64,000 nucleotides of DNA from Devosia equisanguinis (GTDB lineage Bacteria > Pseudomonadota > Alphaproteobacteria > Rhizobiales > Devosiaceae), in assembly GCF_900631955.1 (NCBI RefSeq), contig NZ_UZWD01000018.1, forward strand, positions 62,001 through 126,000, in the 5' to 3' direction. A program made the translations under genes and the position numbers. How positions within the stretch are numbered: position 1 is the stretch's first letter; each line of letters opens with the position of its first letter. Positions 13,006 through 24,070 of the stretch are shown here, piece by piece. Below the pieces are notes generated by a model, which saw only the letters and a list, made by a program, of their open reading frames with translations, was not told the origin of the DNA and searched no databases.

Positions 13006-14331
13006 ATGGCTTCCGTTATCAAGATTTATGCTCTTTTTCTCGGTTCGGCCCTGCTCATGTTTGGCGGTGGCCTGCAGGGTTTGCTGCTTTCGGTGCGCGG
13101 CGCCGAGGAAGGGTTTTCGCTACTGTCGCTGGGCCTGATCGGTACCGGCTGGTCGGTTGGGTTCGTGGCCGGTTCGCTGTTCGTGCCGCTGATCGTGCGC
13201 AAGGTCGGCCATATCCGTGCCTTTTCGGTCATGGCGGCCATCGGCACCGTCACCATTCTGCTCAATCTGCTGCTGGTCAACGATGTCAGCTGGATCCTGC
13301 TGCGGGCCCTCTCCGGCTTCTGTTTTGCCGGTGCTGCCATGATCGTGGAAAGCTGGCTCAACGAGGTGGCGGATAACAAGAACCGCGGAACGGTGTTTTC
13401 GATCTATGTGACCATCAACATGGCCGCCTCCACCATGGGGCAGCTGGCCATGTCGGTCACAGGCACGGCGGGGTATATTCCTTTTGTTGTCGGCGCCATC
13501 AGCTTTATCTGCGCGGTTCTGCCCACTGCCCTCACCTCCAGCCCGCAGCCGCGGCCATTGCAATCGGCCAAGCTCGATCTCAAGCTGCTCTACAAGACCT
13601 CGCCGGTGGCGGCGATCGCGGCCTTTTCCTGCGGCATGGCCAATGGGGCCTTCGGCACGCTGGCGCCGGTTTACGGCTACGAACAGGGTCTAGATGCCAG
13701 TGGTATCGCGCTGCTTTTTGCCATCGCCGCCATTCTGGGCGCCGTGGCGCAGGTGCCGTTTGGACGGCTTTCCGACCGGATCGACCGCCGTCTGGTCCTC
13801 ATTGGCCTATCCAGCTTCGCCGCGCTCGTCGGAGCGCTGACGGCGATCATCAATCCCGATGCGGGCTGGGCCATGTATGTGTTGTTCGCCGCCTATGGCT
13901 TTGCGGCCAACCCGATCTATGCGGTCGCGGTGGCCCATGCCAACGACTTCGCCAAGGATGGCGAATTTGCCAAGATCGCCGGAGGCATGCTGCTCATTCT
14001 GGGTACGGGCCTGGCCATTGGGCCGGCCGTCGCTTCGATGATCATGGGCGCCTGGAGCCCTGTTGGACTCTTCGTGGTCACCGCCACTTTCCACGGCGCC
14101 CTGGCCGGCACTGCCTATCTGCGCATGCGCGTACGCAAGAGCCCCGACGCTTCGAGCCGCGCGCCGTTCCAGCCAATGAGCGACAAGCAGGCGACGCCGG
14201 AAAGCTTTGCACTCGATCCGCGCGCTGATAGTGATGCCGACGATTTTCCGGTGACGCGCGAAACAGCGGTGCCGGAAGAACTGATCGAAACGGTTGAGGG
14301 CGACGACGATGTTCAAAACGGCAAGATATGA
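13006..14331 (+). CDS. MFS transporter (YcaD-like), function unknown
   Basis: 441 aa with about 12 hydrophobic segments over the first 380 residues and the MFS loop motif GRLSDRIDRRLVLIG between helices 8 and 9. An early motif AGSLFVPLIVRKVGHIRAF lies between helices 2 and 3. A charged C-terminal tail of about 60 residues (rich in Asp and Glu) follows. The resemblance to YcaD-type sugar/drug permeases is by overall pattern; substrate is not known. The end overlaps the start of moaB by 23 bases, so the two are probably co-transcribed and translationally coupled. Confidence 0.85.
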   Translation: MASVIKIYALFLGSALLMFGGGLQGLLLSVRGAEEGFSLLSLGLIGTGWSVGFVAGSLFVPLIVRKVGHIRAFSVMAAIGTVTILLNLLLVNDVSWILLRALSGFCFAGAAMIVESWLNEVADNKNRGTVFSIYVTINMAASTMGQLAMSVTGTAGYIPFVVGAISFICAVLPTALTSSPQPRPLQSAKLDLKLLYKTSPVAAIAAFSCGMANGAFGTLAPVYGYEQGLDASGIALLFAIAAILGAVAQVPFGRLSDRIDRRLVLIGLSSFAALVGALTAIINPDAGWAMYVLFAAYGFAANPIYAVAVAHANDFAKDGEFAKIAGGMLLILGTGLAIGPAVASMIMGAWSPVGLFVVTATFHGALAGTAYLRMRVRKSPDASSRAPFQPMSDKQATPESFALDPRADSDADDFPVTRETAVPEELIETVEGDDDVQNGKI

Positions 14332-14845
14332 AGACCGTGATCTCAAACCCGTATCGATCGCCATCGTCGTGGTCTCAGACACGCGCACGCTGGAAACCGA
14401 CAAGGGCGGAAAACTGCTGCAGTCTCTGCTGGAGGCCGATGGCCACCACTGCGCCAGCCGCCAGGTGGTTCGCGACGACATCCAGTTGATCCGCGCCGCA
14501 GTGCAGGCTCTGGTCGCAGACCCACAGGTGGATGTGGTGCTGACGACGGGCGGCACTGGTTTTACCGGCCGCGACGTGACACCAGAAGCCGTTGAGCCGC
14601 TGTTCGACAAGCGCATGGAAGGCTTCTCGGTGCTGTTCCACCAGTATTCGGCAACCACGGTCGGCACGTCCTCGCTGCAGTCGCGGGCCACGGCCGGTCT
14701 TATCGGTGAGACCTTCGTGTTCTGCCTGCCTGGCTCCAGCGGCGCCTGCCGCGATGCCTGGGAGGGGATATTGAGCCACCAATTGGACTACCGCCACAAG
14801 CCGTGCAATTTCGTTGAGATCATGCCGCGGCTCAGCGAACGGTGA
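14309..14845 (+). CDS. moaB: molybdenum cofactor biosynthesis protein B
   Basis: 178 aa of the MoaB/Mog fold, which adenylylates molybdopterin before metal insertion. The signature TTGGTGFTGRDVTPEA lies near residue 75 and the second motif LPGSSGACRDAWEGIL near residue 142; both line the active site. Start at ATG 14309 (MFKTARYEDRD), inside the preceding transporter gene; a frame start at 14294 is also open. No other moa/moe gene is present in the window. Confidence 0.93.
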   Translation: MFKTARYEDRDLKPVSIAIVVVSDTRTLETDKGGKLLQSLLEADGHHCASRQVVRDDIQLIRAAVQALVADPQVDVVLTTGGTGFTGRDVTPEAVEPLFDKRMEGFSVLFHQYSATTVGTSSLQSRATAGLIGETFVFCLPGSSGACRDAWEGILSHQLDYRHKPCNFVEIMPRLSER

Positions 14846-14949
14846 GGTTTGGCGAACAACGCGTTCGTCAGCGTTCCCTTTAACATTGCAATCAGACTGG
14901 GCATCTTTGCTGAAACGGCGCTGAACCAGCGCCCGACAGGAGATTGACC

Positions 14950-15780
14950 ATGTCCAGAACCGCGACCGCGCCCCTGCAGGTGGGCATGGTGACGCTCAAT
15001 GTGCGTGACCACAACCGGGTGGCCGACTATTACCGGCATCTGCTGGGCCTCGAGAGGATCGGCCAGGATGGCACGACGGTGCAACTGGGCGTGAACGGGC
15101 TGGCCTTGCTGGAATTGCGGGGCAATGCAGCCTTGGTGCAACGCAATCCGCGCTCGGCCGGACTCTTTCATACCGCCTTCCTGATGCCGGATCGGCAAAG
15201 CCTCGGAGTCTGGCTGCGCCACGTCGCCACTGACCGGATCTCGGTGGATGGCGCATCGGACCATCTGGTCAGCGAAGCCGTCTATCTGCACGACCCCGAG
15301 GGCAATGGCATCGAGGTCTATGCCGACCGGCCCCGCGCGCAATGGGATATCGACGGCAAGCAGATAACAATGAGCACCGAACAGCTCGATATTCCCTCGT
15401 TGCTGGATCTGGCGCCTGAAAAGAGCTGGGCCGGGGCGCCGGCCGGACTGATCGTTGGTCATATGCATCTGCAGGTGGGCGACAATGCCATCGCAGAGCC
15501 GTTCTACTCGGGCGTCCTGGGCACCGACATCACGGCGCACTATCCGGGTGCCAGCTTCTATGGTGCGGGCGGCTATCATCACCAGCTGGCGACCAATATC
15601 TGGTCGAGCCGCGGCGCCGGCCCCATCCCGCAGAACCAGACCGGCCTTGTCGGCTTCGAACTTCTGGCCGACGACGACGCGCAGCGCAGCGCCATTCTCG
15701 AGCGGGCGCAATCGAACCAAACCACGATCACCGACCCTTGGGGTCTTGCGATCACCCTCAACGTCGCCAGGGAGAGCTGA
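14950..15780 (+). CDS. two-domain glyoxalase-fold (VOC) protein, catechol-2,3-dioxygenase-like
   Basis: 276 aa with two VOC modules. Module 1 starts MVTLNVRDHNRVADYYRHLLGL and contains LHDPEGNGIEVYADRP; module 2 starts HMHLQVGDNAIAEPFYSGVL. Metal-ligand candidates are clearer in module 2 (H in GHMHLQV, HH in GGYHHQLA, E in GFELLADD). Similar proteins are annotated as CatE-like extradiol dioxygenases, but the reaction here is unknown. The ribosome binding site AGGAGA (14938-14943) sits six bases before ATG 14950. It is four bases upstream of a glutathionyl-hydroquinone reductase gene, which suggests a joint role with aromatic or quinone compounds. Confidence 0.82.
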   Translation: MSRTATAPLQVGMVTLNVRDHNRVADYYRHLLGLERIGQDGTTVQLGVNGLALLELRGNAALVQRNPRSAGLFHTAFLMPDRQSLGVWLRHVATDRISVDGASDHLVSEAVYLHDPEGNGIEVYADRPRAQWDIDGKQITMSTEQLDIPSLLDLAPEKSWAGAPAGLIVGHMHLQVGDNAIAEPFYSGVLGTDITAHYPGASFYGAGGYHHQLATNIWSSRGAGPIPQNQTGLVGFELLADDDAQRSAILERAQSNQTTITDPWGLAITLNVARES

Positions 15781-15783
15781 GCC

Positions 15784-16734
15784 ATGCTCGTCAACGGAAA
15801 GTGGAGCGCCAATTGGCAGCCGGTGCAGGCCAAGGACGAAAAGGGTGGTTTCGTGCGCCAGACCTCGAGCTTCCGCAACTGGATCACCCCAGACGGGAGC
15901 ACCGGGCCAACCGGGGAAGGCGGATTTGCTGCCGAAGCAGGACGCTATCATCTCTATGTGGCACTGATCTGCCCCTGGGCCTCCCGCACCATCATCGCGC
16001 GGAAGCTCAAGGGCCTGGAAGACGTCATCTCCATCTCCGTGGTGGAGCCTGAACTGTCCGACCAGGGATGGCGCTTTGCCATGCCGGACCCGATCAACGG
16101 CGCAACCTACATGCACGAGATTTATACCAGGGCCGATCCGCAGATCAGCGGCCGCGCCACCGTGCCGGTGCTGTGGGACAAGCAGCGCAATACCATCGTC
16201 AACAATGAGAGCGCCGACATTCTGCGCATGCTCAATTCGGGCTTTGGCGGCCTGGCTTCCGACGCCTACGATCTCTATCCGGATACACTGCGCACCGAGA
16301 TAGACGCGCTGAACGACTATATCTATCCGCGCCTCAATAACGGGGTGTACCGCGCCGGCTTTGCCACCACGCAACTGGCCTATGACGAGGCTTTCGCCGA
16401 TGTGTTCACGGCACTCGATGCGCTGGAAGAGCGGCTTGCGGGCAAGGCGTACCTGTTGGGGGATGTGCTCACCGAAACCGACATTCGCGCCTTTGTAACG
16501 CTGGTGCGGTTCGACGCGGCCTATTACGGGCTGTTCAAGACCAACCTCAAGCGTATTGCCGACTACCCCAATCTGCAGGCCTATATGCTGCGCGTACTGG
16601 ATATTCCGGGGGTGCGGGAAACGGTGAATATCGACCATATCAAGCGCGGCTATTATTCGATCAAGTCGCTCAATCCCAATGGCATAGTCCCGCGGGGGCC
16701 AGATATTGCCGGGCTCGATAGGGTGGCGCGCTGA
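15784..16734 (+). CDS. glutathionyl-hydroquinone reductase (Xi-class GST, YqjG/EcfG-like)
   Basis: 316 aa. The catalytic Cys lies in LICPWASRTIIARKLKGLE (residue about 61), the Xi-class CPWA motif that removes glutathione from glutathionyl-hydroquinones. A thioredoxin-fold half is followed by an all-helical half (EERLAGKAYLLGDVLTETDI), and the C-terminal HIKRGYYSIKSLNPNGIVP is typical of the class. It acts in the cytosol in quinone detoxification. Three bases separate it from the upstream VOC gene; both are likely one transcript. Confidence 0.92.
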   Translation: MLVNGKWSANWQPVQAKDEKGGFVRQTSSFRNWITPDGSTGPTGEGGFAAEAGRYHLYVALICPWASRTIIARKLKGLEDVISISVVEPELSDQGWRFAMPDPINGATYMHEIYTRADPQISGRATVPVLWDKQRNTIVNNESADILRMLNSGFGGLASDAYDLYPDTLRTEIDALNDYIYPRLNNGVYRAGFATTQLAYDEAFADVFTALDALEERLAGKAYLLGDVLTETDIRAFVTLVRFDAAYYGLFKTNLKRIADYPNLQAYMLRVLDIPGVRETVNIDHIKRGYYSIKSLNPNGIVPRGPDIAGLDRVAR

Positions 16735-16803
16735 TCGGAGCGGGAACAGCTGCGTTCGCGGCTATCCCCACACCGCGCGAGTGGTCGGTCCCGGCGGGAA
16801 CTG

Positions 16804-17955
16804 TCAGGCAGCGCGCTCAATGGCGAGATAGGCGTCGGGCTTGGCGAACATAACCCGATCGCGCCCATCGTCCTTGGCGGCATAGAGGGCGCTGTCGGCG
16901 CGCTTGAACGCAGCCTTCCAGTTCGGCTCCTCCGAGAGCACAAGGCTGACGCCGACGCATAGCGTCACCAACCGGTCAACGCCGCACAGCCGCCAATCGC
17001 GCTCCGAACAGGCAAGACGAATACCATGCGCCAGGGCGCCCGCCTCGGCCATGCTGAGCCGCGGAATCAACACAGCAAATTCTTCGCCGCCAAAGCGCGA
17101 GATAACAGCAGTGCCCGGCAGGATGGAGCGCAGGATATCGGCCAGCCCTGCCAGCACCAGATCGCCGGCCTCATGGCCAAAATCATCATTGATCAGCTTG
17201 AAGCGATCGACATCAACCAGCAATATAGCAGCCCCCTGTCCCATCGGGGTCATGGGGGCAGCGACCGCGTCGAAGCCGCGCCGGTTGAGCAGGCCGGTCA
17301 GCGGGTCACGTTCGGCCGCGCTGCGATAGCCGGCCAACATCTGAGAGACAATCGATCCCATGGCCGCCAAAGCAAAGCCGACGCTCAGCACGCCTACGGC
17401 GACCTGGTTGTAATAGGCATAGGACGAGGCCGCAAAATCGGACAGTGCCGGGCTGATACCCACCAGCACGTTGAAGATGAAGAGACGCACGATAATGTCG
17501 AGCACGACAATGCCTGCCACCGCGACGAGCACGCGATCGGGCAAGGTATGGGCGCGCCAAATAACGGAAGCGAGCGGCACGCCGAGCAGTATGGCAACAG
17601 AGATGTCCGCGACCGTCAGTTCCAGCGGGAGACTGGCAAAGCCCTCGACGGCCACGATGACCATGGCGTAGGCCAGGAGCGCGAAGATAATACGCGGGGC
17701 AATCATGCGCGGCGCACGGAAGTGAAGCAGCAGCGCATCGCCGTAGCAATAAAAGGAAACCAGAAAGGCCGCATTGGCAAGTAGCGATTGCAGGGCGAAA
17801 GGGAGAGGCAATATGGGCGCAATGAAGCCTAGCGCGCCGAACAGGAAAGCCAGCCCCCAGGCGCGCGCGGACTTTGGTCCTGACCAGCCAACGGCCAGAA
17901 AGGTGATCGCGAACAGGATCATCGTCGAGGGAAGCAGAAACGCGAAGTGGTCCAT
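16804..17955 (-). CDS. membrane-bound diguanylate cyclase (GGDEF)
   Basis: 383 aa from ATG 17955 (MDHFAFLLPST). About seven hydrophobic helices fill residues 1-205, then a GGDEF domain starts at ERDPLTGLLNRRGFD. The active site is RFGGEEF (GGEEF form, catalytically permitted) and DVDRFKLINDDFGHEAGD provides the metal-binding part. No RxxD inhibitory site is seen five residues before GGEEF (PGTAVIS), so product inhibition may be absent. It should make c-di-GMP from two GTP at the inner membrane; the signal sensed is unknown. The frame is open upstream to 18045 without better support. Confidence 0.9.
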   Translation of the reverse strand: MDHFAFLLPSTMILFAITFLAVGWSGPKSARAWGLAFLFGALGFIAPILPLPFALQSLLANAAFLVSFYCYGDALLLHFRAPRMIAPRIIFALLAYAMVIVAVEGFASLPLELTVADISVAILLGVPLASVIWRAHTLPDRVLVAVAGIVVLDIIVRLFIFNVLVGISPALSDFAASSYAYYNQVAVGVLSVGFALAAMGSIVSQMLAGYRSAAERDPLTGLLNRRGFDAVAAPMTPMGQGAAILLVDVDRFKLINDDFGHEAGDLVLAGLADILRSILPGTAVISRFGGEEFAVLIPRLSMAEAGALAHGIRLACSERDWRLCGVDRLVTLCVGVSLVLSEEPNWKAAFKRADSALYAAKDDGRDRVMFAKPDAYLAIERAA

Positions 17956-18060
17956 GGGCCCGGCCAGTGTGGTCGCAAGCCTCAAGTGCTGCCATTCAAT
18001 CCTACAAACAATGCCGTTAAAAAAGCGGTTCGATGGCGATGACAACTGGCGCCAAAGCGA

Positions 18061-18082
18061 ACGGCGCCCCGAAGGGCGCCGT
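18061..18082 (-). terminator. probable terminator hairpin of the DHA2 transporter gene
   Basis: ACGGCGCCC (18061-18069), loop CGAA, GGGCGCCGT (18074-18082): a perfect 9-bp GC-rich stem nine bases past the stop of the minus-strand transporter. Read on the minus strand the following bases are TCGCTTTGG, a poor T-run; on the plus strand CGCTGTTTT follows. Termination is likely but not of textbook form. Confidence 0.5.
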
Positions 18083-18090
18083 CGCTGTTT

Positions 18091-19572
18091 TCAGTGGCCG
18101 ACCGGGGCCATGCCGCCAGGCGCCACCTCCGGCTTGCGCACGAAAAAGGCGGCCACCACCATGGCCAGCGAGATGATGGCACCGCACAGGAAACCGGCGC
18201 GAATACCGGCGGCCAGCGCGTCAACGCCACCGAGCCCTTCGGCGATGCCGGATGCTGTTCGCAGGCTCATCACTGCAACGAAGAGCGCGATACCGGCAGC
18301 ACCGGCAACCTGCTGGACCGAACCCAGAATGGCGCTGGCGTGGGAGTAAAGCGGCATCGGCACCGACCCCATGGACGAGGTAAAGAGCGGGGTGAATGTC
18401 AAGGCCAGGCCGAAGCTCAACGTGATGTGACCGGCAACCACGGCCCAGACCGGAGTGTACTGGCTGACGAAAGTCAGTGCCCACATGACGGCGGAGACCA
18501 GGATCACGCCCGGCACCAGCAATGGGCGCGGGCCAATCTTGTCGTAGAGCCGACCGACGATCGGCCCCATCAGCCCCATGAGCAGGCCGCCCGGCAGCAG
18601 CAGCATACCAGTCTGCAGCGTGTCGAGGCCAAGCACGCTTTGCGTATAGATCGGCAGCAGGATGGAGGAACCGAGCAGCGCCACCATGGCAATGGCCATG
18701 GTGATCAGCGCCATGGTGTAATTGCGATGCTGGAGCGTGCGCAGATCGAGGAGCGCCTTGTTGTCCTTGGCGAGATTGTTCTGACGCCGGATGAACACCA
18801 CCATTGCAACGACGCCAACCACGATGGGCAGCCAGGCCGGAATGGCCGAACCATGCTCGGCGCCTTCACCAAGGCTGGAGAGGCCATAGACGATGCCACC
18901 AAAGGCAAGGGCCGAGACGATGACCGAGAACACATCCAGCGGCGCATAGCGCGGATTTGAGACATTGCGGATGCGCATGGCGCCGAGCACCAGCGCACCG
19001 ATGGCGATGGGCAGCGTGAAGTAGAACATGAAGCGCCAGTCGAAATGCGCCAGGATGAAGCCGCCAATGGTCGGGCCGATAGCGGGAGCCACCGACATGA
19101 CGATGGAGATATTGCCCATGGTCTTGCCACGGCCCTCTGGCGGCACCAGGGTCATGACCGTGGTCATCAGCAAGGGCATCATGATCGCGGTGCCGGTGGC
19201 CTGCACCACGCGGCCGAAAATCAACAGTTCGAGCCCCGGCGCCAGCGCACAGATCAGCGTGCCCACGGAAAACACGGACATGGCGATCATGTAGATCGGG
19301 CGAGTGTTGATGCGCTGGAGCAGGAAACCGGTGACTGGAATGACGACTGCCATGGTCAGCAGGAACGCCGTGGTCAGCCACTGCGCGGCGCTGGCTGTCA
19401 CTTCGAGATCCTTCATGAGGTGGGGAATGGCCACGCTCATGATGGTCTCGTTGAGAAATACCACGAAGGTCGATACGAGCAGGATGGCGATCACCAGCCG
19501 ATTGCGCGCAGCATTGTCGGGGTGGTGCGGCGCGCTGGTCGGCGCGGCGTCCATGGTTGCGTCCATTGTCAT
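18091..19572 (-). CDS. DHA2-family MFS multidrug efflux transporter
   Basis: 493 aa with about 14 predicted membrane segments, the number expected for the DHA2 family of proton-driven drug exporters. Helix 1 reads VIAILLVSTFVVFLNETIMSV with the characteristic D/E-x-T/I-I-x-x-V-A-x-P pattern (NETIMSVAIPHL). Motif A-like GFLLQRINTRPIYMI and motif C-like APAIGPTIGGFI in helix 5 are present. It is most similar in type to EmrB/LmrB pumps; no membrane-fusion partner gene is adjacent. Start ATG 19572 has GAGGGA upstream. The divergent radical SAM gene starts 370 bases away. Confidence 0.9.
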   Translation of the reverse strand: MTMDATMDAAPTSAPHHPDNAARNRLVIAILLVSTFVVFLNETIMSVAIPHLMKDLEVTASAAQWLTTAFLLTMAVVIPVTGFLLQRINTRPIYMIAMSVFSVGTLICALAPGLELLIFGRVVQATGTAIMMPLLMTTVMTLVPPEGRGKTMGNISIVMSVAPAIGPTIGGFILAHFDWRFMFYFTLPIAIGALVLGAMRIRNVSNPRYAPLDVFSVIVSALAFGGIVYGLSSLGEGAEHGSAIPAWLPIVVGVVAMVVFIRRQNNLAKDNKALLDLRTLQHRNYTMALITMAIAMVALLGSSILLPIYTQSVLGLDTLQTGMLLLPGGLLMGLMGPIVGRLYDKIGPRPLLVPGVILVSAVMWALTFVSQYTPVWAVVAGHITLSFGLALTFTPLFTSSMGSVPMPLYSHASAILGSVQQVAGAAGIALFVAVMSLRTASGIAEGLGGVDALAAGIRAGFLCGAIISLAMVVAAFFVRKPEVAPGGMAPVGH

Positions 19573-19853
19573 CTCAGTCCCTCATGGCTGTGCGTGTCGG
19601 CAAGACGACGGAGCGACCCATCGGCTTTCGACACCGCTTCCAAAAAATTCGTGACAGACCCTGTCAGCAACAAATCGGGCGCACGCGAAACCGAGATGGG
19701 ATCGGGATCGCGGGATAAGGCGCAGGACAATGTGTTAACGGGTGGGCCGGCCCAGGCGCGGTTGTCTACGCCAGTGCGGCTGGGCCGTAAAGTCTTGTAA
19801 TGCAGGCCGGCCATGCCGATATGGTAGGCAGGAAAGGTCACCCAAACAAGTTC
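19573..19853. other. non-coding divergent spacer
   Basis: The 369 bases between the divergent transporter (start 19572) and the radical SAM gene (start 19942) contain a LexA-type box near the right end and no supported gene. Short frames here look like chance; I see no RNA gene. Promoters of both genes should lie in it. Confidence 0.5.
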
Positions 19854-19868
19854 GTTCTTGTTTTGTTC
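19854..19868 (+). promoter_or_regulatory. LexA (SOS) box upstream of the radical SAM gene
   Basis: GTTCTTGTTTTGTTC is an exact match to the alphaproteobacterial LexA site GTTC-N7-GTTC. It ends 73 bases before ATG 19942 and is 281 bases from the divergent transporter start. In rhizobia and relatives LexA binds such sites in recA, lexA and imu promoters; therefore SOS control of the downstream gene is a strong inference. Confidence 0.7.
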
Positions 19869-19941
19869 TCGTGTTGCTGTTAAGTCTTTTGCGTGTCGGA
19901 AGGCAGCGATTCTGCCGCCGTCGCAGGCAGGAGAACACGAA

Positions 19942-21090
19942 ATGGCCCTCTATCAGGCCCCATCCTTCGAAGCCCTGGAACGCTTGAGCCGCAGCCGCGA
20001 CGCCGACCTGGCGCGGCGCGAGCTGGAAAATCCGGACCGTATTCGCGGCCGCGGTGCGCAATCGAACCGCACGGGCCGGTTCGAGGTGCACCAGCGTGAA
20101 GGCTTTGACGATGGCTGGAACAATGTGGAGCCCCTGCCGGTGTTCGAGACCATCGAGCACACTGAGCGCGCCAAGAGCATCATCACCACCAATGACAGCC
20201 CCGATATCGGTTTTGATCGCTCGATCAACGCCTATCGCGGCTGCGAGCATGGCTGCTCCTACTGCTTTGCGCGGCCCACCCATGCCTATCTCGGCCATTC
20301 GGCCGGGATCGACTTCGAGCGCGATATTTATGTGAAGACCAACGCCGTGGAGGCATTGCGCGCCGAATTGGGGGCAAAGTCCTACCGGCCCAAGCCTATT
20401 GCCATGGGCACCAATACCGATCCCTATCAGCCGGCCGAGCGCAAGCACAAGCTGACGCGCGGCATTCTGGAGGTGATGCTGGAGACCAGGCATCCAGTGA
20501 TGATTACCACCAAGTCAGCCCTGATCCTGCGCGATCTGGACCTGCTCACCAAGCTGGCCAAGCTCAACCTGGTGAAGGTGGCGATTTCGGTGACGTCGAT
20601 GGATCACAAGCTCAGCCGCAAGATGGAGCCGCGCGCTTCCTCGCCTGCACGGCGGCTGGAAGCCATCCGCGTCTTGTCGGAGGCCGGCGTGCCCACCGCC
20701 ATTTTCGCCTCGCCGATGATCCCTGCGATCAACGACATGGAGCTCGAACGCATTCTCGATGCCGGCAAGGCGCAGGGTGCCGTCAGCGCACAGATGATCC
20801 TGCTGCGGCTGCCGGGCGAAGTGCGCGACGTGTTCCGCGAATGGCTGCTGCGCCATTTCCCCGACCGGGTGCGCCATGTGCTGTCGCTGGTGCGCGACAC
20901 ACGCGGCGGCAAGGATTACGATTCCCGCTGGGGCACGCGCATGACCGGCGAAGGCCCTTATGCCACCCTGCTGCGCCAGCGCCTCGACAAGGCCCGGGAG
21001 CGGCTGGAACTCGACGCCAAATTGCCGCCGCTGCGCATCGACCTGTTCGAGGCCCCGACGCTGGAAAGCCGACAGATGAGCCTGTTCTGA
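19942..21090 (+). CDS. PA0069-family radical SAM protein (SplB-like)
   Basis: 382 aa. Cx3Cx2C in CEHGCSYCFARPTHAYL (C101, C105, C108) binds the 4Fe-4S cluster that cleaves SAM. The protein belongs to the PA0069/Rv2578c family, which is related to spore photoproduct lyase; PIAMGTNTDPYQPAERKHKLT and the HPVMITTKSALILRDLDLL segment are typical of it. Its reaction is unknown, but a DNA-repair or nucleic-acid role is suspected from the SplB relationship. GCAGGAGA (19927-19934) is the ribosome binding site for ATG 19942. A perfect LexA box lies 73 bases upstream, which supports damage-induced expression. Confidence 0.88.
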   Translation: MALYQAPSFEALERLSRSRDADLARRELENPDRIRGRGAQSNRTGRFEVHQREGFDDGWNNVEPLPVFETIEHTERAKSIITTNDSPDIGFDRSINAYRGCEHGCSYCFARPTHAYLGHSAGIDFERDIYVKTNAVEALRAELGAKSYRPKPIAMGTNTDPYQPAERKHKLTRGILEVMLETRHPVMITTKSALILRDLDLLTKLAKLNLVKVAISVTSMDHKLSRKMEPRASSPARRLEAIRVLSEAGVPTAIFASPMIPAINDMELERILDAGKAQGAVSAQMILLRLPGEVRDVFREWLLRHFPDRVRHVLSLVRDTRGGKDYDSRWGTRMTGEGPYATLLRQRLDKARERLELDAKLPPLRIDLFEAPTLESRQMSLF

Positions 21091-21138
21091 AAAGACAAGG
21101 TCGGCGCGACTGCAAGGCTCGGGCCCGCGGGTCGGCCC

Positions 21139-21720
21139 TTAGTACTCCGCCACCTTTCGCGCATAGATGTCCATGAAGTCGAGCGAAGCAAGGACACCTT
21201 GCAGGGACAGGCGCACCTCGAGCGGCTGATCGCGGCCGGTAAGGGGCACAGAAAGGGTGACTGCATTGCGGTTTTTCATCTTGTCGATGATCCCGGTCTC
21301 GACCACATCATCGGTGATGAAGAACTGATTAATGGTGTTGAAACGGGTTTCGATGCCGGAGCCCATGGGCAGGCTGATGGGAGGCTCACCACCGAAGCGC
21401 AGTTCCATGGGACGGGTGGGGTCATAATCGCCCTCCTCGCCGGCAATGGTAATGGCAAGGTCGAGCTTGCCGTCGAGGCGATTGCGAACAAGGGTCAGCT
21501 TGTAGGAGGGCAAATTGGCGCCGTTGAGCGTTTGGCTACCGGTGCTGGCAAAGCAGGAATAGCCGTAGAAATCGGTGGCGTCCTCGTCGATCTTGTCGGG
21601 ACAGGCCGCCAGCCAGTCGCGATTATATTCGCGCCATTCGCCATAGGGGTGGTGAAACGGGGCCGCCACGGCGGGCATGGCCATAAGCAGGCCGACGGCA
21701 AAGCATGTCGCTAGGCGCAT
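21139..21720 (-). CDS. secreted protein of unknown function
   Basis: 193 aa with a signal peptide (MRLATCFAVGLLMAMPAVAA). The mature part has two Cys (CPDK and YSCFAS), which could form a disulfide in the periplasm, and a beta-rich pattern. No family recognised with confidence; a loose resemblance to IalB-like secreted proteins (SLQGVLASLDFMDIYA) is not enough to name it. It converges with the radical SAM gene and diverges from the DUF4180 gene; the GANTC site GACTC near 21763 lies in the shared upstream spacer. Confidence 0.75.
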   Translation of the reverse strand: MRLATCFAVGLLMAMPAVAAPFHHPYGEWREYNRDWLAACPDKIDEDATDFYGYSCFASTGSQTLNGANLPSYKLTLVRNRLDGKLDLAITIAGEEGDYDPTRPMELRFGGEPPISLPMGSGIETRFNTINQFFITDDVVETGIIDKMKNRNAVTLSVPLTGRDQPLEVRLSLQGVLASLDFMDIYARKVAEY

Positions 21721-21799
21721 TGTTGTCTCTCAATCGCTTTGCCCCCCGGCACGGACTCTTATATCAGGGTCAATGTGCTGGGAAAATGGAGGCGACGCC

Positions 21800-22165
21800 A
21801 TGGACATCGAAAAGCTTGGCCCCCTGACGCTGGCCTTTTTGCCCAGTGAAGGGCCGCTGCAGGGCAGCGAAGCGGATGCTGTCGACATTATCGGCAACAC
21901 CTATGGGACCGGCGCCGAGATGGTGGTGGTGCCGGTGGGCCGGCTGGTGCCGGAATTTCTCCAACTCGACACGCGCGTTGCCGGGCTGTTTTTCCAGAAG
22001 ATGCAGAATTACAGCCTGCGGCTGGCCGTGATCGGCGATATTTCCGAACGCATGGCCGCCAGCAAGGCGCTTCGCGACTTCGTCGGCGAAACCAACCGCA
22101 TCGGCCACCATTTATTCGTCCCTGACCGGGCGGCGCTGGTCGCCGCGCTCGAGCGAGGGCGCTGA
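21800..22165 (+). CDS. DUF4180 family protein
   Basis: 121 aa. The pattern matches DUF4180: an N-terminal beta strand, LQLDTRVAGLFFQKMQNYSLRLAV and IGDISERMAASKALRDFVGETN. The function is unknown. GGAGG (21788-21792) precedes ATG 21800. The stop overlaps the start of rnhB by one base (TGATG), so the two are translationally coupled. Confidence 0.82.
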   Translation: MDIEKLGPLTLAFLPSEGPLQGSEADAVDIIGNTYGTGAEMVVVPVGRLVPEFLQLDTRVAGLFFQKMQNYSLRLAVIGDISERMAASKALRDFVGETNRIGHHLFVPDRAALVAALERGR

Positions 22166-22847
22166 TGGCAAGGCGTTTGCGACCAGAGGGCGACGATCTT
22201 TTCGCCACCATGCCCGAGACCCCGGACTTTTCGCATGAAACCATGCTGATCGAGCGCGGCGCACGGATCGTGGCGGGCGTCGATGAGGCCGGACGCGGTC
22301 CGCTCGCGGGCCCCGTCGTGGTGGCGGCCGTGCATCTCGACCCGCACAATATTCCGGCCGGGCTCAACGATTCCAAAAAGCTCAATGCTGCCCAGCGCGA
22401 GGCACTCTATGCCGAGATCATGGCAAGCAGCGCGGTGGCCATAGCCAGCGCACCACCGGGTGAAATCCTCAGCCTTAACATTCGAGGCGCGACGCTTGCC
22501 GCCATGGCACGGGCCGTGCGCGCCCTGCCCTGTGCGGCCGATCGGGTGCTGGTCGATGGACGTGACGTGCCGCCGGGGCTGCCCTGCCCCGGCCTGGCGC
22601 TGATCGGTGGTGACGGACGTAGCGTGTCGATTGCCGCAGCCTCCATCATCGCCAAGGTGACGCGCGACCGCATGTGCGCAATCATGGATTGCGACACACC
22701 GCAATTCGGCTTTGCCGGTCACAAGGGCTATGGAACTGCCGCGCATTTGAACGCGCTCAACACACATGGACCCTGCCGCCACCACCGGAACGGGTTTGCG
22801 CCGGTTACGGCGTTGCTGATGCGGCGGACAACGGTTGTGGTTGCCGG

Positions 22848-22851
<4 letters not shown>
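22165..22851 (+). CDS. rnhB: ribonuclease HII
   Basis: 228 aa. Acidic catalytic residues appear in VAGVDEAGRGPLAGPVV (the D-E pair and GRG motif), in RVLVDGRD and in the C-terminal part (MDCDTPQFGFAGHKGYGT). LNDSKKL is also family-specific. The enzyme nicks RNA in RNA-DNA hybrids and removes misincorporated ribonucleotides. It is coupled to the DUF4180 gene upstream and stops 82 bases before ccrM. Confidence 0.95.

Positions 22852-24070
<1,219 letters not shown>

Follow-up and report, generated by a model that had tools for sequence, protein, structure and literature searches.

The window, by which we mean the whole 64,000-nucleotide stretch of Devosia equisanguinis DNA analysed here, contains a gene for a 382-residue radical SAM protein of the PA0069 family, preceded by a LexA-type operator and a putative promoter delineated by comparison with orthologous loci (Table 1). 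The encoded protein carries the CxxxCxxC motif of radical SAM enzymes and ends in a pentapeptide that resembles the motif by which proteins bind the beta sliding clamp. Two genes further downstream on the same strand, which we take from their sequences to be rnhB (encoding RNase HII) and a ccrM-like DNA methyltransferase gene, are recurrent neighbours of the radical SAM gene in other genomes.

Table 1. Features of the radical SAM locus and their coordinates in the window
Feature	Position	Strand	Basis
LexA operator GTTCTTGTTTTGTTC	19854..19868	+	exact motif match; conservation in orthologues
Inferred -35 hexamer TTGTTT	19858..19863	+	position-wise conservation over 199 promoters; lies inside the operator spacer
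Inferred -10 hexamer TAAGTC	19881..19886	+	17 nt after the -35; conservation over 199 promoters
Inferred transcription start	19893..19894	+	box positions 40-41
PA0069-family radical SAM protein, 382 aa	19942..21090	+	profile matches
CxxxCxxC (C101, C105, C108), [4Fe-4S]/AdoMet motif	20242..20265	+	alignment
QMSLF, predicted beta sliding-clamp binding motif, residues 378-382	21073..21087	+	C-terminal motif match
rnhB (RNase HII)	22165..22851	+	conserved downstream neighbour in other genomes
ccrM-like DNA methyltransferase	22934..24070	+	conserved downstream neighbour

We surveyed the gene neighbourhood at 189 loci, with some genomes represented twice. An rnhB homologue is present at 121 of these loci and is downstream and co-directional in 120 of the 121; a ccrM-like gene lies downstream at 70 loci and a gene that is presumably moaB lies upstream at 73, all of them co-directional. 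Since rnhB follows in the same direction in many genomes, the operator could also drive rnhB there; in the window, a minus-strand gene separates the two. The order moaB, radical SAM gene, rnhB, ccrM-like gene, all in one direction, recurs at many alphaproteobacterial loci and extends from 14294 to 24070 in the window.

Operator and probable promoter of the radical SAM gene

An earlier prediction, made from this DNA alone, had placed a perfect LexA box 73 bases upstream of the ATG of a PA0069-family radical SAM gene and assigned the enzyme to the SOS response. The box is as described: GTTCTTGTTTTGTTC matches GTTC-N7-GTTC exactly, and 73 bases separate it from the ATG at 19942. Taken alone, the bare core is mildly enriched and constitutes weak evidence. 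It occurs three times in the window against an expectation of 1.37, a count of at least three being reached in 16 of 100 shuffles, and 121 times in the whole 4.13 Mb genome against 65 times for the reversed control. What lifts the operator far above chance is not this core count but the fact that orthologues keep the box at one spacing.

We identified orthologues with the NF033668 model, which scored over its cut-off in 53 of 61 same-family genomes, 101 of 121 genomes in the order sample, 54 of 115 in the class sample and 70 of 200 in the phylum sample, these samples overlapping. Up to 450 bp upstream of orthologues in three taxonomic rings were then scanned on the sense strand for the exact core at spacings of 3-12, leaving out 8 same-class and 3 same-order genes. 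The original prediction had proposed looking for the box in orthologous promoters, and it is conserved there: GTTC-N7-GTTC is present in all 53 same-family genomes (D. equisanguinis included), in 100 of 107 genomes from other families of the order (upstream sequence is lacking for one of the remaining seven), and in 47 of 55 genomes from other orders of the class. Spacings of 3-6 and 8-12 were found in 0-4 genomes, and the spacing-7 controls gave 1, 3 and 1 genomes (family, order and class, respectively) on the antisense strand and 0, 3 and 1 in the reversed sequence. Among the 15 of 215 in-class genes that lack an exact sense-strand box, including the one without upstream sequence, an exact box is found on the antisense strand in two genomes of the order and one of the class, and some others have near-matches. 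The 15-mer found in the window is also the commonest site among the orthologues, identical in 32 of the 200 promoters with a box. A box that arose by chance or survives as a fossil, at a promoter without LexA control in this organism, would fit the mild enrichment of the bare core, and is highly improbable given its retention at a single spacing in every same-family genome.

We also scanned named records from a separate collection. Among the best 80 of 588 relatives there, the box is present in 61 of the 76 records with at least 100 bp of upstream sequence, four more being too short. Carriers include Devosia ureilytica, D. marina, Cucumibacter marinus and Microvirga aerophila, whereas Tistlia consotensis and the betaproteobacterium Novimethylophilus kurashikiensis are among the 15 records that lack it. 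A Sinorhizobium meliloti pSymB gene annotated as "PA0069 family radical SAM protein" also has the box.

When 199 promoters were aligned on the box, TTG emerged as conserved at positions 5-7, as did a TAnnnT pattern further downstream (T at a frequency of.68 at position 28, A of.75 at 29, and T of.56 at 33), with little conservation beyond about -2 to +34; the window promoter has C instead of T at position 33. From this conservation, rather than from a consensus match, we read a -35 element and a -10 element separated by a 17-nt spacer, and LexA bound to the operator would cover the -35 element. A generic sigma70 promoter scan of this promoter returned zero matches, and a search of it for repeats found none. 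A is the most frequent base at box positions 40 and 41 (.42 and.38), and the first in-frame start codon falls at positions 39-41 in 75 of 197 genes, none of them in Devosia's own family; many orthologues are therefore probably leaderless, with transcription starting at positions 40-41. This anatomy fits what is described for Caulobacter CCNA_01391, a candidate orthologue with a GTTCttgttatGTTC LexA box (PMC12700426) and a leaderless start (PMC4287350), although we make no claim that the two genes are orthologues.

The SOS regulon within and beyond the class

Judged by gene context, GTTC-N7-GTTC can be taken as the LexA operator of this genome. Among the 37 of its 121 sites that we examined, one lies before lexA itself (TIGR00498, 180 bits), whose start codon is 26 bases from the first base of the site. 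The corresponding distance is 44 bases for a YifB/ComM-like gene and 102 bases for a parE-like gene (491 bits on the part cut by the stretch). Many of the examined sites lie within open reading frames or score low, and the reading frames downstream are mostly non-SOS genes. PMC3323433, which also describes the LexA motifs of the different groups, counts parE and comM among the SOS genes of other alphaproteobacteria. A gene for an AlkZ-like DNA glycosylase (PF06224, 243.9 bits), possibly a further SOS member, starts 38 bases from the first base of GTTCCTCTATTGTTC (G000:C26:39395-39409). Upstream of lexA, two opposed GTTC-N7-GTTC sites lie 10 bp apart (G000:C5:21755-21794), the second of which faces a 79-residue open reading frame.

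A LexA model match was found in all 45 tested genomes that carry the radical SAM gene, and all 11 genomes without LexA are among the 35 tested genomes that lack the gene. In the other 24 of these 35 a LexA match is present, in some of them below cut-off, so that the regulon can evidently do without the radical SAM gene; many of the genomes that lack the gene are small or incomplete.

Outside the class, the operator differs. None of 26 orthologues from the phylum's other classes has GTTC-N7-GTTC upstream; 18 of the 26 have the E. coli-type LexA box, an exact CTGT-N8-ACAG, with other spacings found at most once, and 8 have neither exact box. Aeromonas caviae, the one gammaproteobacterial example with a name, speaks against a change of operator, since the stretch scanned there contains no exact CTGT-N8-ACAG. 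Among four actinobacterial Rv2578c-type genes taken from plasmid-collection records, those of Streptomyces and Nonomuraea have an exact GAAC-N4-GTTC upstream; those of Arthrobacter and Tsukamurella have one-mismatch sites only, which 320 bp occasionally yields by chance. Because many related genes in other groups carry CTGT-N8-ACAG or GAAC-N4-GTTC, the gene appears to be retained in the SOS regulon while the LexA operator changes.

These findings lend strong support to the SOS assignment of the original prediction, through a spacing-specific operator that recurs in three taxonomic rings and sits on the inferred -35 element, the same core before lexA, comM-like and parE-like genes, and CTGT-N8-ACAG before most orthologues outside the class (18 of 26). 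We regard membership of the radical SAM gene in the SOS regulon as very likely, and it had already been predicted. Work by Cirz in 2006 reportedly found LexA control of PA0069 in Pseudomonas. In 2012, splB of alpha- and betaproteobacteria was predicted to be under LexA, whereas such control was not seen in the gammaproteobacteria studied there (PMC3323433). In Streptomyces venezuelae, the related radical SAM gene vnz_31145 belongs to the LexA regulon, with values of 19.97 and 1.31 in two fold-change columns (PMC9380542). SplB/radical SAM genes are also placed in the SOS regulons of Bacteroidetes (PMC8565304) and of Balneolaeota and Gram-positives (PMC7739468), and SplB-like genes have been linked with ImuB-C operons (PMC3765255). 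The statement accompanying the original prediction, that such a role had not been assigned to the family, was thus wrong (PMC3323433; PMC9380542). As in the window, the published cases comprise a radical SAM gene under a LexA operator, and the window gene very probably represents this member of the regulon. Any function named in the passages concerned is photolyase-like or DNA repair, and those passages mention neither a clamp-binding tail nor a missing catalytic cysteine. We found no literature joining Rv2578c with LexA in a search that covered subscription journals thinly.

Protein family and comparison with spore photoproduct lyase

The protein matches NF033668 (rSAM_PA0069) over the full length of the profile (positions 1-348 of 348) with 524.9 bits against a cut-off of 360, and both CxxxCxxC and PF04055 place it in the radical SAM superfamily. 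C101, C105 and C108 are invariant in 47 aligned sequences, so that the family and cluster cysteines named in the original prediction both stand. We found no difference from the NF033668 family, whose model name assigns no function. The next-best model, that of the Rv2578c family (NF038135), scores 236 bits, under its cut-off of 430; the four actinobacterial examples of that family also end in Q-x-x-L-[FL], and any LexA box seen there is GAAC-N4-GTTC (exact in two of the four). Radical SAM mobile pair protein B (TIGR04470) shares a homologous core at 111 bits, under its cut-off of 410; the two examples examined lack a clamp-like tail and are encoded beside pair protein A on plasmid records.

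We compared a predicted model of the protein (mean pLDDT 78.8; residues 1-66 mostly low, core mostly >70) with solved structures. Foldseek returned spore photoproduct lyase as the best match (E 1.8e-7, TM 0.48-0.57), and the VIA fold match to the lyase reached Z 19.5 over 264 residues with an rmsd of 3.5, the next family reaching Z 15.0. The predicted fold is therefore closest to that of spore photoproduct lyase. Besides the fold, the lyase (PDB 4fhc and mutants) has in common with the PA0069 family the cluster motif and the TK and EP...RL..A stretches. An intermediate alphaproteobacterial protein bridges the two, matching both the lyase in the PDB (E ~1e-13) and the PA0069 family profile (94% probability).

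The catalytic residues set the two apart. The lyase has C140, which we take to be its catalytic cysteine (C140A and C140S mutants are among the fold matches), and Y98. In contrast, the 47 aligned PA0069-family sequences contain no fourth conserved cysteine, one further column having C in 6 of 47. When the sequences are aligned by hand, without gaps, around a conserved D, C140 falls on T157, a position that is T in 44 of 47; the assignment rests on this alignment because hhalign of the family with the lyase chain spans only 68 columns, at 18% probability. The position of Y98 corresponds to F109 and is F in 42 of 47 sequences and Y in 5, whereas Y107, at the position of lyase Y96 and forming the tyrosine of CxYC, is invariant. 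Neither the protein sequence nor its alignment retrieved a lyase chain from the solved structures at E <=1. The lyase model TIGR04070 has no match in the D. equisanguinis genome at E 0.001 and exceeds its cut-off in none of the 115 class genomes, 8 of which give weak matches. Since only the cluster cysteines are conserved, the PA0069 family is lyase-like by fold yet not a member by catalytic residues. The relationship to the lyase claimed in the original prediction accordingly holds for the predicted fold but does not extend to the catalytic cysteine.

These comparisons bear on the possibility that the protein is a true spore photoproduct lyase, acting in desiccated and UV-exposed cells to revert 5-thyminyl-5,6-dihydrothymine, as the 2012 proposal for alpha- and betaproteobacterial splB has it. 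The closest solved fold, the cluster motif with its invariant CxYC tyrosine, the bridging protein and the published SOS control (PMC3323433) all speak for this reading. Against it stand the lack of a fourth conserved cysteine, the phenylalanine that mostly replaces Y98, the failure of sequence searches to reach a lyase chain, and the absence of over-cut-off TIGR04070 matches from the 115 class genomes, and we consider it quite unlikely. Any lesion processed is probably other than the classical spore photoproduct.

Residues 36-59 of the protein (20047-20118 in the window), with the pattern RGRGAxSNxxGRFE...DDGW, are strongly conserved, and D56, D57, G58 and W59 are invariant. This segment has low confidence in the predicted model and is perhaps a second binding segment.

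The C-terminal tail and a possible mode of action

In a review, the motif for binding the beta clamp is given as Q-phi-x-[L/M]-[F/L], and several such motifs are located in C-terminal tails (PMC11139829). QMSLF agrees with this motif and lies in a segment predicted to be accessible, with residues 379-382 at pLDDT <50 and predicted disordered, and a short helix modelled at 377-380. We examined the last 16 residues of 183 unique family proteins from the 189 loci, and found a canonical motif in 163, a hexapeptide form in 2, a looser form in 15 and none in 3. The canonical count accepts A at position 2, as found in the internal clamp motif of E. coli Pol III alpha. The canonical motif is rare in control sequences, occurring in 9 of 14676 internal 16-mers, in 84 of 9150 shuffled tails, and in 1 of 248 tails from six neighbouring protein families (0/71, 1/110, 0/30, 0/15, 0/9 and 0/13). 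Among all other long open reading frames, real or not, it occurs in 1 of 817, and that one resembles a tail of the PA0069 family itself.

The tail extends beyond the class. Tails were read for 20 of the 26 orthologues there, and QxxL[FLI] stands at or beside the end in all 20; nine of these are canonical, and position 2 is Q, G or R in 10 of the 20. The four actinobacterial tails read QLTLL, QLRLL, QEPLF and QESLF, with E at position 2 in two of the four, and a Gemmatirosa relative ends in QLSLGI. Relatives from Paenibacillus, Priestia, Staphylococcus saprophyticus, Runella and Monoglobus have no clamp-like tail.

An alternative that we regard as unlikely is that the QLSLF-like tail serves as a hydrophobic degron or belongs to the fold, rather than being a clamp motif. 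In its favor, the looser-form motif is the exact C-terminal end in 151 of 183 proteins, and the model has the short helix there. However, the motif is followed by 1-6 further residues in 23 of 170 proteins, and by more in a few. Among these 151 proteins, position -2 is L in 148 and position -1 is F or L in 147, as in the published clamp consensus, whereas -6 and -8 to -10 are variable; Q at -5 is fixed by the way in which the 151 were chosen. On this motif evidence, docking of the protein on the beta clamp is likely.

As far as our literature search shows, a C-terminal clamp-type tail on the PA0069 family is new. We found no report joining a radical SAM repair enzyme to the clamp, in a search judged by titles and the beginnings of abstracts and thin on subscription journals, and the terms "radical SAM" and "SplB" are absent from the two sliding-clamp reviews searched. 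One paper containing both radical SAM and clamp terms deals with the production of an antibiotic that targets DnaN (PMC10817943).

Taking the conserved operator, the promoter geometry, the cluster cysteines and the tail motif together, all of them features of the sequence, we on balance favor a model in which an SOS-induced radical SAM enzyme with a predicted lyase-type fold binds the beta clamp and acts on a DNA lesion at stalled forks or gaps. In resting cells, LexA would occupy the operator and cover the -35 element, blocking RNA polymerase; upon DNA damage, RecA-driven cleavage of LexA would free the promoter and induce the gene in this organism. The enzyme would then dock on DnaN via its C-terminal QMSLF, and an AdoMet-derived radical would serve to process a DNA lesion or adduct where forks have stalled or post-replicative gaps remain. 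The predicted clamp-docking tail and the missing lyase cysteine indicate a probable site of action and a chemistry that is probably different from that of the lyase. The original prediction had suggested that the enzyme may act on damaged nucleic acid; this suggestion gains from a clamp motif that it did not mention, with DNA as a probable substrate that we infer.

The enzyme could instead be SOS-induced and act on something other than DNA, such as a nucleotide, RNA or a protein (for example, a replisome component), whether docked on the clamp or not. Peptides, tRNA and cofactors are the substrates of the radical SAM enzymes ranked next by fold, which would fit such a substrate. The lyase, however, leads the next family by 4.5 Z units, and the clamp motif and SOS control both indicate DNA; we hold a substrate of this kind to be improbable.

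Radical SAM genes recur in the SOS regulons of several phyla, where they have been filed as photolyases by homology. More tentatively than the model above, and with somewhat more doubt than conviction, we propose that the PA0069/Rv2578c type forms a widespread class of SOS-induced, clamp-docking enzymes, distinct from the lyase and kept through operator changes, that remove a replication-blocking lesion by radical chemistry. If true, direct radical chemistry would join the activities that are exchanged on the clamp during DNA damage.

Relatives of the enzyme also occur in plasmid and phage records. On a Staphylococcus saprophyticus plasmid (L392), a radical SAM relative that lacks the tail is encoded beside an annotated DNA glycosylase and a 2OG-Fe(II) oxygenase. 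Phage records contain weak radical SAM relatives in 8 of 50,697 cases. One of these, a distant relative on an unverified gut phage contig (MT835833.1, L403), ends in QMSLF followed by one residue, which suggests clamp docking in a possible phage protein, and a relative on another gut contig of the phage set (L404) has a tail containing QMTL.
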